Positions 2,612 through 6,822 of a DNA stretch of 64,000 bases are shown piece by piece; the first letter of the stretch is position 1; each line of letters opens with the position of its first letter. Origin of the DNA: Acidobacteriota bacterium (lineage in GTDB: Bacteria > Acidobacteriota > Terriglobia > Terriglobales > Acidobacteriaceae). The stretch is from positions 1,426,001 through 1,490,000 of the forward strand of contig JACPYL010000010.1 in NCBI GenBank assembly GCA_016196065.1, written 5' to 3'. A program made the position numbers and the translations under genes. A model generated the notes under the pieces. It did no database searches. It was not told the origin of the DNA and worked only from the letters and a program-made list of their open reading frames with translations.

Positions 2612-4966
2612 CTAGTCGGCCGCAATTTCTGTTTCCGCCGACTTGTTTTCCATGACCGAATTCAATGTATGGGAATATCGCCCCAAAGTTCCGGAGCTAA
2701 ATAGATCGTCGTGCGCTGGAACGATGAGTTCCGGCGCGTGCAACGCGCTCGGACCGCTACTGGCAATCTCGGTGTGTTGATCGTTACCTGCCAGCAGATT
2801 GAGTCGCGAAACATCGTATCCCGCCACAACCCGCTGGATTTCATCCAGAATTGCGATCGGATCGAACGGCGTCATACGTGGTTCAAGATTGTGCGCTTCG
2901 AGCCAGACTGCATGGCGGTCGGCTTCGCCCGACTGCACGCCGCGGGTCTGACCCATGTCGGCGCGAGTACCGTGTCCGAAGGGAACCAGCTTGCGCACAT
3001 CGAAGCCCATCGCGTCGGCGATGCGAACGATCATTTCAAAATCCGGTTTGGTGCCGCTGACGTCCCCGGCCTTCTTGGCGAGCTGTACATCGCCGCAAGT
3101 GTTGGTGACCGTGCCTTCCTTTTCGTAGGCATTGGCTGCCGGCAACACAACGTCCGCCAGGGTGGCGGTTTCCGTGATGAACATCTCTTGCACGACGATG
3201 AAAGTTTTGGATAACGAAGCAGGATCAATGCCAAGCCGTCCCACCGGATTCGATCCGACTACGTAGAGTGCTTTCAGTTTGCCAGTCGCTGCGGCATCTA
3301 ACATTCCCGGCAAGTTCAAACCTTTGTCCTGCGGAATGTTGCCCCACTCGTCGCGGAACTGTACGGAATCCGCAACCGGTTGATATCCTGGCAGCAAGTC
3401 AGGGTAGAGTCCCATGTCGGCCGCGCCGCGCGAATTCGCGTAGTCGCTCAGGCAGATCAACTTTGCTCCTGCGAGTGACGAGGCCAACGCAACTAACTTC
3501 TGGACGTCCGCGCCGCGTACTTCCGATCCAAACGCGATGATGAGATTTTGTTCGCCACGAACTTTCTCACGCAGCGCCGTCCAGGCATCGCGATTCGTCA
3601 TGTCGGTGACGAGCGAATCGAGAAGGGAATCGTCGCCGGAGAGGAATCCGACTGCCTTTCCTTCCGTTCCTGCGGGAAGCAGGCCGAATGCGGCGGATTG
3701 ACGGCGCAACTTGATCGGTGCGGAGTTAATCGTGTACAGCCGCGACCGATGGAGCCGAACATTGTTGCGAATCTGGTAAGCGAGCAGTGGATGCTGATTG
3801 GTGGGGTCGTTCCCCAGAAGCAACACAGCCGGCGCATCAAAGACTTCGCGCATGGTGGCTGTCATTCCGGGCTTGCCGTGCAGAGAACCCGCCAGCGCCG
3901 CATAGTCGGCAGTGCGATGGTGATCGACGTTGTTCGTCTTCAATACCACGCGCGCAAATTTTGACAGCAGATAATTTTCTTCGTTGGTCGTGCGATTCGA
4001 TCCGATCACGCCGATCGCTGAGCCGCCATCTTTGTCCCGCACTTCGGCAAAGCGTTTGCCGATGAGGGTGAAGGCTTCTTCCCAAGTGGCGGGATTGAGT
4101 TTGCCATTCTTGCGAATAAGAGGTTGGGTCAGGCGTTCTTTGTGATGGGCGAAATCAAAAGCGTAGCGGCCCTTGATACAGAGAAAGTCGTTGTTGATAC
4201 CGCTCTTGTCGCGGTTGTCACCGCGCACGATTTCCATGCCGGTATCGCAGCGGCGAACGCCGAGAGTGGTTTTACAGCCGTCTCCGCAATGCGTGCAGAC
4301 CGTGCCGACGTGGTTCATTTCCCACGGACGAGTCTTGTAGCGGTACGCGCCGGACGTAAGCGCGCCGACCGGGCAGATGTCGATGCACATGCCGCACTCT
4401 TCGCAATCCAGATGATCGTCCTGGTTGGGAGAAATGAGGGAACCGACACCGCGATTCTGGACGCCCAGGGCCCAGACATCCATGGCTTCACCGCAAACCC
4501 GCACGCAGCGATAACAAAGTATGCAACGCGGACGATCGAAAAATACGACCGGAGACCACTGCTGTTCTTCTTTGTGGTTCTTGGCCTCCATGAACTTCGA
4601 CTCGGCGGCGCCGTACGAGAACGTCATGTCCTGCAATTCACACTCGCCGCCCGCATCGCACACCGGGCAATCAAGCGGATGGTTCCCCAGCAGCAACTCG
4701 ACCATGGCCTTGCGAGATTGACGTATTTCGTCACTGTCGGTGGTAACGATCATGCCTTCGGCAACCACCGTCGTGCAGGCGGTCTGCAGCTTAGGCATCT
4801 TCTCGACTTTGACAACGCACATGCGGCAAGCGCCCTGCAGCGACAGGTTGGGGTAATAACAAAAGGATGGAACTTCGATGGCCGCGCTCTTGCAGGCTTC
4901 AATGAGCAGCGTCCCAGCCGGAGCTGTGAGGGTCTTGCCGTCGACAGTTAGTGTGACATCAGGCAT
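2612..4966 (-). CDS. nuoG: NADH-quinone oxidoreductase subunit G
   Basis: A 784-residue iron-sulfur subunit of the peripheral arm. Visible ligands are a 2Fe-2S site (C36, C47, C50, C64), a His-Cys3 site (H96, C100, C103, C109), a 4Fe-4S set (C148, C151, C154 and C188-C198 residues), and a further set (C224, C227, C231, C263) matching the N7 cluster kept in some bacteria. A molybdopterin-oxidoreductase-like domain without recognised catalytic use follows. The ATG at 4966 has no Shine-Dalgarno sequence. It lies directly against an array of octamers ending in ATTAC, which is unusual and described separately. Confidence 0.97.
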   Translation of the reverse strand: MPDVTLTVDGKTLTAPAGTLLIEACKSAAIEVPSFCYYPNLSLQGACRMCVVKVEKMPKLQTACTTVVAEGMIVTTDSDEIRQSRKAMVELLLGNHPLDCPVCDAGGECELQDMTFSYGAAESKFMEAKNHKEEQQWSPVVFFDRPRCILCYRCVRVCGEAMDVWALGVQNRGVGSLISPNQDDHLDCEECGMCIDICPVGALTSGAYRYKTRPWEMNHVGTVCTHCGDGCKTTLGVRRCDTGMEIVRGDNRDKSGINNDFLCIKGRYAFDFAHHKERLTQPLIRKNGKLNPATWEEAFTLIGKRFAEVRDKDGGSAIGVIGSNRTTNEENYLLSKFARVVLKTNNVDHHRTADYAALAGSLHGKPGMTATMREVFDAPAVLLLGNDPTNQHPLLAYQIRNNVRLHRSRLYTINSAPIKLRRQSAAFGLLPAGTEGKAVGFLSGDDSLLDSLVTDMTNRDAWTALREKVRGEQNLIIAFGSEVRGADVQKLVALASSLAGAKLICLSDYANSRGAADMGLYPDLLPGYQPVADSVQFRDEWGNIPQDKGLNLPGMLDAAATGKLKALYVVGSNPVGRLGIDPASLSKTFIVVQEMFITETATLADVVLPAANAYEKEGTVTNTCGDVQLAKKAGDVSGTKPDFEMIVRIADAMGFDVRKLVPFGHGTRADMGQTRGVQSGEADRHAVWLEAHNLEPRMTPFDPIAILDEIQRVVAGYDVSRLNLLAGNDQHTEIASSGPSALHAPELIVPAHDDLFSSGTLGRYSHTLNSVMENKSAETEIAAD

Positions 4967-4969
4967 TTT

Positions 4970-5001
4970 GTAATTTTGTAATCGGGTAATTTTGCAATCT
5001 A
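4970..5001 (-). repeat. octamer array abutting the nuoG start
   Basis: Four contiguous 8-base units read on the coding (minus) strand as TAGATTGC, AAAATTAC, CCGATTAC and AAAATTAC, ending three bases before the nuoG ATG. The array occupies the place where a ribosome binding site would be. It is the inverted counterpart of the array at 5374-5413, so the two could pair in the transcript around the intervening gene. Confidence 0.85.
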
Positions 5002-5005
5002 AATT

Positions 5006-5365
5006 CTACCGATTCCCGCGAGCCGTAAACTGGGACGCCGTGAAAATCGCACACAGTTCGTGCGCTTCCGCCAGCAGCGGTTCCAGTTTCTTCAACGGGA
5101 CGATGTTACAGTCCGAAAGCATCTCCAGCCAAAACACCGTCTCGTCTGCTTCTTCGACAACAATGCCGATCTTGGCAACCCACTCTGCTTTCGATCGAGC
5201 TCGACATGTCGCTCGATAATTTGCCGCGACCGCTGTCCCACATCGCAAAAGTTGTTTTCCCAAGACTTGCGCGTCCGTCTTAAACGAGAGCGCCCGATAA
5301 ACCCCAACGATTCTAATTGCAAATGCTTTCGTGCGAGCGCGAAGGTCTTCTTGTTGTGACGGCAT
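5006..5365 (-). CDS. four-helix bundle protein (23S rRNA IVP family)
   Basis: A 119-residue helical protein (from the ATG at 5365; a GTG at 5374 is an alternative start). It resembles the four-helix bundle family (TIGR02436 / 23S rRNA intervening-sequence protein, Avd-like). The conserved segments are FKTDAQVLGKQLLRCGTAVAANYRAT near residues 30-55, then a Lys/Glu-rich helix and EADETVFWLEML. It is a foreign-looking gene placed between nuoF and nuoG, which are normally adjacent, and is bracketed by inverted octamer arrays. Members of this family occur inside 23S rRNA inserts and as solitary genes; the biochemical role is not established. No function in complex I is implied. Confidence 0.8.
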   Translation of the reverse strand: MPSQQEDLRARTKAFAIRIVGVYRALSFKTDAQVLGKQLLRCGTAVAANYRATCRARSKAEWVAKIGIVVEEADETVFWLEMLSDCNIVPLKKLEPLLAEAHELCAIFTASQFTARGNR

Positions 5366-5373
5366 CAGGTTCA

Positions 5374-5413
5374 CAAATTACAAAATTACCCGATTACCCG
5401 ATTACCAAGTTAC
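5374..5413 (-). repeat. octamer array after the nuoF stop
   Basis: Five contiguous 8-base units read on the plus strand as CAAATTAC, AAAATTAC, CCGATTAC, CCGATTAC and CAAGTTAC. On the coding strand they become GTAANNNN units. Because the unit is 8 bases and holds TAA, this strand has stops in all three frames. The array starts 8 bases after the nuoF stop codon and is inverted relative to 4970-5001. Confidence 0.85.
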
Positions 5414-5421
5414 AAAATCTT

Positions 5422-6741
5422 CTACGCAAAAACAGGTAACGGCGCGAGCGTGCTCGCTTTTTCAAACGGACACGGCTTGCCTTCCAAATGATCTTCAAAC
5501 TCTTTTCTGAACTTCTTCACGAACGCCATCGTCGGCATCGCGGCCGCATCTCCGAGCGGACAGAAAGTCTTGCCCAGCATGTTTTCGGAGAGGTAGTAAA
5601 TATTATCAATGTCTTTCATCACGCCGCCGCCGGAATGGAAGCGCTTCAGCGTCTTCTCCAGCCAGTCCGTACCCTCGCGGCACGGGATACACCATCCGCA
5701 ACTTTCGTGGCGGTAGAACTTCATCGTGCGCAGCGCGAATTTGACCATGCAGTTGGAATCGTCGAGCACGACCACGCCGCCGGAACCGAGCATGGATCCC
5801 GCTTTTGCGACGCCATCGAAATCCATCGCCACATCGATCTCGGCCGCGGTTAGTATCGGAGTGCTTGATCCGCCAGGAACAACTGCCTTGAGCGCGCGTC
5901 CATTCGGAATCCCGCCGCCGACCTCGTAGATCATCTTCTTGAGGTTGTAGCCCATCGGCAATTCGTAGACGCCCGGCTTGTTCAGGTTGCCCGCGAGACA
6001 GAACAGCCGCGTGCCGCCGTTCTTCGGCGTACCCAGTCCCGCGAACCATTCCGCACCGCCCAGAATAATGTGCGGCACAGAGGCCAGCGTCTCGGCATTG
6101 TTGATAACCGTCGGTCCGCCCCAAAGTCCAACCACGGCCGGGAAGGGAGGTCGAATGCGGGGAATGCCGCGCTTGCCTTCAAGCGACTCCATCAGCGCCG
6201 ACTCTTCGCCGACTTCGTAAGCGCCCGCGCCGCCGTGCCAGAAGATGTCGAGATCGTATCCACTGCCAAAAATGTTCTTGCCGAGAAAGCCTTTTGCGTA
6301 GGCGTCTCGGATCGCCTTCTGCATGATGATCGACAGGTAGCGATACTCGCCGCGAATGTAGATGTAGCCGGTGTGGGATCCAACGGCGATGGCGGCGATC
6401 ATCACGCCTTCGATCACCGCATGCGGATCGTGTTCGAAGATCAGCCGGTCTTTACAGGTGCCGGGCTCGCTCTCGTCCCCGTTGCACAAAACGTATTTCG
6501 GCTTGGCCGACTGTTTGGGAACGAATGACCATTTCATCCCGGTCGAGAATCCTGCGCCGCCGCGCCCGCGCAACCCGGAGTTCTTGACTTCATTGATGAT
6601 CGCGTCCGGTTGCATGCTGAGGGCTTTCTGCACGGCTTTGTAGCCGTCCAGTTCCAGGTAGCGATCGATGTTCGTCGCTCCCTGGCCAAAGCGCTTCGAG
6701 ACTACTCGTACCTCGTCGGGATGTGAGACCAAAGATGCCAT
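5422..6741 (-). CDS. nuoF: NADH-quinone oxidoreductase subunit F
   Basis: A 439-residue flavoprotein that binds NADH and FMN at the tip of complex I. Visible are GLRGRGGAGFSTGMKW (NADH site, about 57-71), the FMN-site region CNGDESEPGTCKDR (86-99), and the N3 4Fe-4S ligands C348, C351, C354 and C394. The usual segment GAGAYICGEE reads GAGAYEVGEE here (171-180), an unusual substitution. No Shine-Dalgarno precedes the ATG at 6741; it follows an octamer repeat directly. The next nuo gene, nuoG, is separated by the four-helix gene. Confidence 0.97.
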   Translation of the reverse strand: MASLVSHPDEVRVVSKRFGQGATNIDRYLELDGYKAVQKALSMQPDAIINEVKNSGLRGRGGAGFSTGMKWSFVPKQSAKPKYVLCNGDESEPGTCKDRLIFEHDPHAVIEGVMIAAIAVGSHTGYIYIRGEYRYLSIIMQKAIRDAYAKGFLGKNIFGSGYDLDIFWHGGAGAYEVGEESALMESLEGKRGIPRIRPPFPAVVGLWGGPTVINNAETLASVPHIILGGAEWFAGLGTPKNGGTRLFCLAGNLNKPGVYELPMGYNLKKMIYEVGGGIPNGRALKAVVPGGSSTPILTAAEIDVAMDFDGVAKAGSMLGSGGVVVLDDSNCMVKFALRTMKFYRHESCGWCIPCREGTDWLEKTLKRFHSGGGVMKDIDNIYYLSENMLGKTFCPLGDAAAMPTMAFVKKFRKEFEDHLEGKPCPFEKASTLAPLPVFA

Positions 6742-6744
6742 GTT

Positions 6745-6822
6745 GTAATTTGGAAATTTTGTAATCTGGTAACTTAAAAACCTGCGGCCACCGAGCCTCG
6801 CATTGCAAAATTACCAATTGCT
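6745..6822 (-). repeat. gene-free octamer element between nuoE and nuoF
   Basis: On the plus strand four 8-base units (GTAATTTG, GAAATTTT, GTAATCTG, GTAACTTA; 6745-6776) are followed by about 25 unique bases and an inverted partner (AAAATTAC, CAATTGCT; 6807-6822). The last two bases overlap the nuoE stop codon, and the other end lies three bases from the nuoF ATG. It has the same plan as the element around the four-helix gene but holds no ORF. Confidence 0.8.

Follow-up and report, generated by a model that had tools for sequence, protein, structure and literature searches.

A four-helix bundle gene between inverted octamer arrays in an acidobacterial nuo operon: a probable mobile intercistronic element

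The window analyzed here, a 64,000-nucleotide stretch of contig JACPYL010000010.1 of an Acidobacteriota bacterium, includes a nuo operon in which the gap between nuoF and nuoG is occupied by an element of about 450 bp. This element consists of a gene encoding an S23p/Avd-like four-helix bundle protein located between two inverted arrays of a short repeat unit that is specific to the element, and it is probably mobile, or was so until recently. The same architecture recurs at unrelated loci across phyla, the nuoF-nuoG site differs among congeners, and copies without a gene are scattered in the genome. In the best reading, the element is likened to the intervening sequences (IVSs) of 23S rRNA genes, with derivatives that resemble miniature inverted-repeat transposable elements (MITEs) and REPINs.

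Structure of the nuoF-nuoG element

The coding strand is the minus strand, on which the gap is filled by five octamers, the four-helix open reading frame (ORF), and four inverted octamers. The features are as follows.

4967-5418, minus strand: whole element; the best arm pairs are 84-92% complementary and the predicted RNA has a long terminal stem made by the paired arrays
5374-5413, minus strand: 5' array, five 8-nt GTAANNNN units
5006-5365, minus strand: four-helix bundle ORF, 119 amino acids from ATG, or 122 amino acids from a GTG at 5374
4967-4998, minus strand: 3' array, four 8-nt units, ATTGCAAA then three ATTACNNN, the inverse of the 5' array
5422-6741, minus strand: nuoF, upstream host gene, stop codon TAG at 5424-5422
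2612-4966, minus strand: nuoG, downstream host gene, named by the nuo context; its matches in congeners adjoin nuoF
6742-6820, minus strand: gene-less octamer mini-element at the nuoE-nuoF junction, partly decayed; read by eye, the array detector having made no call

Following the nuoF stop codon the units of the 5' array are GTAACTTG, GTAATCGG, GTAATCGG, GTAATTTT, and GTAATTTG (5413-5374), and those of the 3' array are ATTGCAAA, ATTACCCG, ATTACAAA, and ATTACAAA (4998-4967). A first-pass annotation, made from the letters of the sequence, had described a four-helix ORF bracketed by two octamer arrays that are mutual inverses, and this description agrees with the sequence, the pattern counts and the profile searches. 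The two top arm pairs between the arrays are 32 nt at 84% complementarity and 26 nt at 92% complementarity. That annotation had the 3' array ending three bases before the nuoG ATG, which is correct if the units are written NNNATTAC; otherwise they abut the ATG. The pattern GTAANNNNGTAANNNNGTAA has four matches in the window, all of them in this element, and none in 100 shuffles. In the whole genome, three consecutive GTAATNNN units gave 10 matches at 4 sites, namely the element's own and three further places, while the pattern read backwards gave none. The RNA stem that had been envisaged around the ORF is also predicted: on folding of nucleotides 4960-5424 (minimum free energy -155 kcal/mol, z -2.57) the paired arrays form a long terminal stem.

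Judged by its sequence, the ORF product is a true member of the PF05635/TIGR02436 family. Profile searches gave an E value of 3.1e-12 and 47.1 bits (cut-off 33.8) for PF05635, '23S rRNA-intervening sequence protein', and 7.7e-20 and 71.1 bits (cut-off 24) for TIGR02436, 'four helix bundle protein'. Among solved structures, PDB 2RLD is a relative by sequence (E 1.3e-15), and 2GSC was found with an alignment profile (E 8e-36). The four-helix fold and the likeness to Avd are assigned from these similarities together with part of PMC10053308. The ATG at 5365 is more likely to be the start codon than the GTG at 5374 because the reading frame in congeners begins there.

The arrays had also been thought to act as a translational valve, closing translation of one gene and opening that of the next. 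A recheck confirmed that the 5' array has stops in every frame and that the 3' array has none, and by eye nuoG is not preceded by a Shine-Dalgarno sequence. The valve was nevertheless rejected: nuoF ends before the array, only 42 of the 132 upstream arm segments aligned at four-helix loci (see below) have stops in all frames, and several congeners with no insert likewise show no clear Shine-Dalgarno sequence at nuoG by eye. A translation-coupling purpose of the arrays is therefore not supported.

The same architecture at other four-helix loci

Loci were scored by alignment of the upstream arm with the reverse-complemented downstream arm, with a pooled threshold of at least 26, and loci displaced by 700 bp with the spacing kept served as controls. 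The threshold was reached at 134 of the 158 four-helix loci scored, which are the best-scoring matches (132/156 without two duplicates), versus 2 of the 257 displaced controls. The best-fitting unit among the 134 loci is 7 nt long in 104, 8 nt in 21, 9 nt in 8, and 11 nt in 1. Arrays such as those first described in the window thus recur, but the octamer itself is not a fixed property: the unit is element-specific and mostly of 7, 8 or 9 nt. In genomes of the same family 33/34 scored loci reach 25 or more, the mismatched-pair null for this set having a mean of 17.5, a standard deviation of 4.4, a 95% point of 22, and a maximum of 53. Twenty further loci from three genomes are mostly bracketed too, L176 and L177 scoring only 21 and 23. 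When named organisms of many phyla were considered, 55 of 77 loci reached 29, the 99% point of the mismatched-pair null, and 22 fell short; this set includes Acidobacteria, Patescibacteria, Clostridia, Bacteroidota, Proteobacteria, Chloroflexi, Planctomycetes, Gemmatimonadetes, one archaeon, and others. In plasmids of cyanobacteria the array-flanked gene is found between genes for ribonucleotide reductase subunits, and also between cas6 and cas4. The phages searched for the element yielded no match.

The genome of the window has six other four-helix genes, two fragments of a broken gene being counted as one. Each of the five intact genes is bracketed by inverted 7-mer arrays, with a different unit for each gene. 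The broken gene (G000:C8:408837-409156; L007 and L008) is split into two overlapping pieces that lie in different frames, one of them having an internal stop, and no bracketing arrays were seen around it by eye. The proposal of a mobile element had been made dependent on finding such arrays around four-helix genes elsewhere, and it passed this check, as inverted arrays flank these genes at unrelated loci, each with its own unit. The longest flanking ORF is co-directional upstream in 87/124 cases, downstream in 72/125, and on both sides in 55/118, counts that are given without a genome baseline and say little.

Occupancy of the nuo operon in congeners

A nuoF match was found in 30 of the 31 genomes searched, own included, although in some it is a paralogue only. 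The comparison of nuo operons that the first-pass annotation had called for was possible at the 17 nuoF-nuoG junctions that could be read in the genus, the window's among them, and it showed the site to be empty, deleted, or filled by other inserts. Six junctions are empty (13-25 nt), one has the window element, and one (G072) has a deletion remnant in which the 5' array and the initial ~40 bases of the ORF are kept. Five hold gene-less inverted pairs of 7-mer arrays (hereafter minis), three of which are ATTTGTA-like, and one has a 7-mer array running into an N gap; another inverted repeat is present in two, and an unrelated ORF in one. Five congeners have a related four-helix gene bracketed by ATTTGTA-like heptamers between nuoD and nuoE (identity 62-66% in four; in the fifth the match is split over two frames, at 69% and 58%), and other congeners have octamer minis there. 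Therefore, from the inserts at both junctions, the gaps of the nuo operon have been occupied repeatedly.

The nuoF-nuoG gap of L059 and L060 includes a GC-rich inverted repeat, GTAGCGCCGGC..GCCGGCGCTAC, possibly of the repetitive extragenic palindrome (REP) type. In L054 (G069) the gap is ~600 nt long and includes an unrelated ORF.

Gene-less copies

The three further sites of the triple-octamer pattern adjoin coaX, clpB, and dcd (names assigned from translated ORFs), and each is an inverted pair lacking its own ORF. A fourth gene-less pair, partly decayed, was recognized by eye at the nuoE-nuoF junction of the window. Long hairpins are predicted for three of these four octamer minis (z -8.6, -9.1, and -7.1) but not for the decayed pair (z -1.2). 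With strict settings, 7 inverted period-7 pairs were detected in 400 kb sampled from the window's genome (mirror control 1). In 200 kb of G025, which has 11 gene matches, there were 3 at period 7 and 6 at period 8 (mirror 0), with 2 extra pairs at period 6 and 1 at period 10; 200 kb of G050, with 7 gene matches, had 2 at period 7 (mirror 0) and 1 at period 6, equal to the mirror. Four genomes without a four-helix gene, 669 kb altogether, had no strict pairs at periods 7-9.

In all three genomes compared the minis were on average closest to the gene arms of their own genome: 11.5 versus 9.8 and 9.4 for the two others, 9.7 versus 6.1 and 7.9, and, by a narrow difference, 10.7 versus 7.3 and 10.1. 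A query that included one octamer mini of ~97 bp gave 1 to 39 matches per congener, a count in which palindromic copies may appear on both strands, some matches are flanking genes, and gapped ones may be 7-mer arrays. Inverted 8-mer arrays of the CACAGAG type in G025 (L119 16668-16823, L122 2309-2386) correspond to none of the four-helix genes detected in that genome.

Changes of unit length at fixed sites

Upstream of dcd an inverted array was seen by eye at the same position in all 17 readable loci of the genus (L283-L299). A script called 14 of the 17, the unit being an octamer at three loci and a heptamer at eleven, and two of the three uncalled arrays read as 8-mers. At clpB (L258-L282) the array that follows a similar left boundary is made of octamers in some species and of heptamers in another. 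Either the arrays at dcd and clpB were replaced by conversion or their units were rewritten, and this switching at fixed sites is the least explained observation. The gap upstream of clpB also includes another inverted-repeat element, TGTCATCCTGAGCG..., in L261, L262, L265, L268, and L273; in L273 it lies directly after an array.

The conservation in place of the dcd arrays is what would be expected if the four-helix protein were a regulator and the arrays its operators or RNA-binding sites, at its own and other genes, grown by replication slippage with nothing mobile. We consider this explanation unlikely. The gene and arrays with matched units are present at unrelated loci in different phyla, the nuoF-nuoG site of congeners is empty, reduced to a remnant, or holds other units, and slippage leaves the inverted pairs unexplained.

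Relation between the protein and its repeat unit

For 131 elements protein identity was correlated with unit similarity (Mantel rho 0.173; maximum 0.08 in 500 permutations), as it was when pairs with homologous flanks were removed (rho 0.155; maximum 0.068 in 300 permutations). In this latter set, unit matches were found in 1/2800 pairs below 30% protein identity, 1/581 at 30-40%, 9/1753 at 40-45%, 25/1585 at 45-50%, 19/1058 at 50-55%, 15/407 at 55-60%, 12/170 at 60-65%, 6/43 at 65-70%, and 12/17 above 70%. The link between protein and arrays, which the first reading of the sequence had left unshown, now has statistical support. Among well-fitting elements (duplicates included), the units are 7-mers in 84/94 of the canonical type versus 12/25 of a divergent subfamily, to which the window protein belongs.

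A universal unit grammar, with a core of k-3 bases plus three variable bases, was first noticed by eye and could not be established. The three most variable phases adjoin one another in 15 of the 45 untied 7-mer elements against 9 expected, in 4 of the 11 8-mers against 1.6, and in 0 of the 3 9-mers against 0.3; for each of the three unit lengths, the fraction of variability that falls in the best 3-base window is inside the permuted range.

Relation to known systems

The window element has in common with 23S rRNA IVSs that carry an S23p ORF the protein family, a size of ~430-450 nt, and the location of the ORF within complementary ends. The IVS that is the subject of PMC4990558 carries tandem heptamers ahead of its ORF, in numbers that vary between strains; it is described there as a selfish element that RNase III excises, and the Xanthomonas homologue of the protein as a toroidal homopentamer of four-helix bundles. 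The S23p ORF of the window lies between complementary termini as in an IVS, but between nuoF and nuoG and not inside a 23S rRNA gene; because of this location we do not classify the element as an IVS, although it may be handled like one at the RNA level. Unlike IVSs, elements of the window type have unit arrays at both ends, the units being mostly of 7-9 nt and element-specific, and gene-less copies of them are scattered.

The gene-less copies invite comparison with the REPIN-RAYT system, for which co-evolution of REPIN doublets with a cognate RAYT gene has been proposed (PMC3116915, in part). Both systems have scattered intergenic inverted doublets without a gene that form hairpins, predicted here for 3 of the 4 minis folded, together with a cognate gene. 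This gene encodes a Y1 tyrosine transposase in RAYTs and a TIGR02436 protein in our element, whose ends, unlike those of REPINs, are tandem arrays of a short unit. With MITEs the element shares terminal inverted repeats. The Avd protein of diversity-generating retroelements belongs to a related protein family (PMC10053308, in part), but these retroelements include a reverse transcriptase gene: none is present between or beside the window arrays, and the only PF00078 match of the genome is on another contig.

Points against mobility and other possible agents of movement

Several observations weigh against a mobile element that is recognized by its own protein. No movement has been observed, and neither a target-site duplication nor an exact pre-insertion sequence could be established when occupied and empty sites at nuoF-nuoG and clpB were compared by eye, the congeners being too diverged. 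The scored loci were not a random sample but the best matches. Of the 156 distinct ones, 24 fall below the array score. Unit length agrees only modestly with that of the nearest protein (0.75 versus 0.63 permuted, permuted maximum 0.77), and the association between protein and unit could be due in part to undetected common descent of whole elements. As regards the minis, many have no matching four-helix gene among those found in the same genome, and matches between genomes are frequent. G047, with 2 gene matches, has no strict minis in 100 kb; relaxed settings raise both counts and controls (17 versus mirror 5 in the window's genome) and give 2 period-7 pairs in each of two gene-free genomes. 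A transposase acting in trans, or a general tolerance of repeats, could be the source of the copies.

To these points can be added the correlation between the numbers of Y1_Tnp and four-helix matches in 60 genomes of the family (rho 0.75, uncorrected for genome size), which is in line with a RAYT/Y1 transposase of the same genome moving the inverted arrays while the four-helix gene is a passenger or helper. We regard this as quite improbable. Of the six Y1 loci examined, which are from related genomes, four have long inverted palindromes of another kind and none has k-mer arrays beside it; three genomes (G035, G044, and G019) have four-helix matches and no Y1_Tnp match; and the units track the four-helix protein.

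A weaker correlation was found in the same genomes, also uncorrected for genome size, between reverse transcriptase and four-helix counts (rho 0.38, p 0.003). An Avd-like action, in which the element moves through an RNA copied by a reverse transcriptase in trans, would be compatible with it, with the resemblance of PF05635 to Avd noted in part of PMC10053308, and with the predicted folding of the transcript as a bracketed hairpin. PF00078 matches are found in the window's genome (one, with eight four-helix matches), in G059 (seven, with nine), and in G050 (one, with seven). This possibility is nonetheless very remote, as there are no PF00078 matches in G025 (11 four-helix matches, 99% complete), G007 (9, 89%), and G001 (7, 90%).

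A possible mechanism

If the element is mobile by means of its own protein, this protein, a toroidal pentamer by homology, would bind successive units of its own arrays, either as DNA or as an RNA or single-stranded DNA hairpin. Binding would mark the full element, and gene-less copies in trans, for copying into intergenic gaps, the hairpin form being the likely substrate. We know of no catalytic site in so short a four-helix fold, and for this reason cutting and joining are proposed to be supplied by host enzymes. In the nuo mRNA the arrays would pair into a long stem around the ORF, which RNase III might cut as it does in 23S rRNA IVSs.

Wider occurrence and heptameric repeats

A more general reading, which we put forward tentatively as possible though somewhat short of probable, is that four-helix genes and k-mer arrays constitute a single, very widespread and unrecognized class of mobile bacterial and archaeal DNA. 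The protein would read the length and sequence of its own unit, gene-less copies would be mobilized in trans and give rise to much of the unexplained heptamer and octamer repeat content of bacterial genomes, and 23S IVSs would be members that landed in rRNA genes. Arrays at fixed sites would be rewritable, from 8 to 7 nt or the reverse at dcd and clpB, as though by copying of units from a cognate template. If true, this would bring together what a common protein family does, where rRNA IVSs come from, and the unexplained 7-9 nt repeats of bacteria. A protein of ~120 residues paired with a short unit that varies in length and letters would then represent a natural set of recognition variants, and if the element holds no catalytic partner its manner of movement becomes a mechanistic question now open to testing. 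In the titles, abstracts, and some passages of open-access papers we recognized none that ties four-helix/S23p genes outside rRNA to flanking k-mer arrays.

Heptameric repeats described in bacteria, such as GGGAATC of Xanthomonas, GGGGATT of Nostoc, and TAACTGA of Beggiatoaceae, are mostly intergenic and of unexplained origin, as presented in parts of PMC4692102 and PMC4679880; the terms 'S23' and 'helix bundle' are absent from the main texts of both. In the Xanthomonas group and in Nostoc, four-helix genes are flanked by runs of heptamers, although with other letters. The four-helix genes of Xanthomonas codiaei (L205), an unclassified proteobacterium (L225), and Pseudoxanthomonas (L241) are flanked by CGGGACC heptamers, which recall the GGGAATC repeats studied as G-quadruplex formers (PMC4692102).
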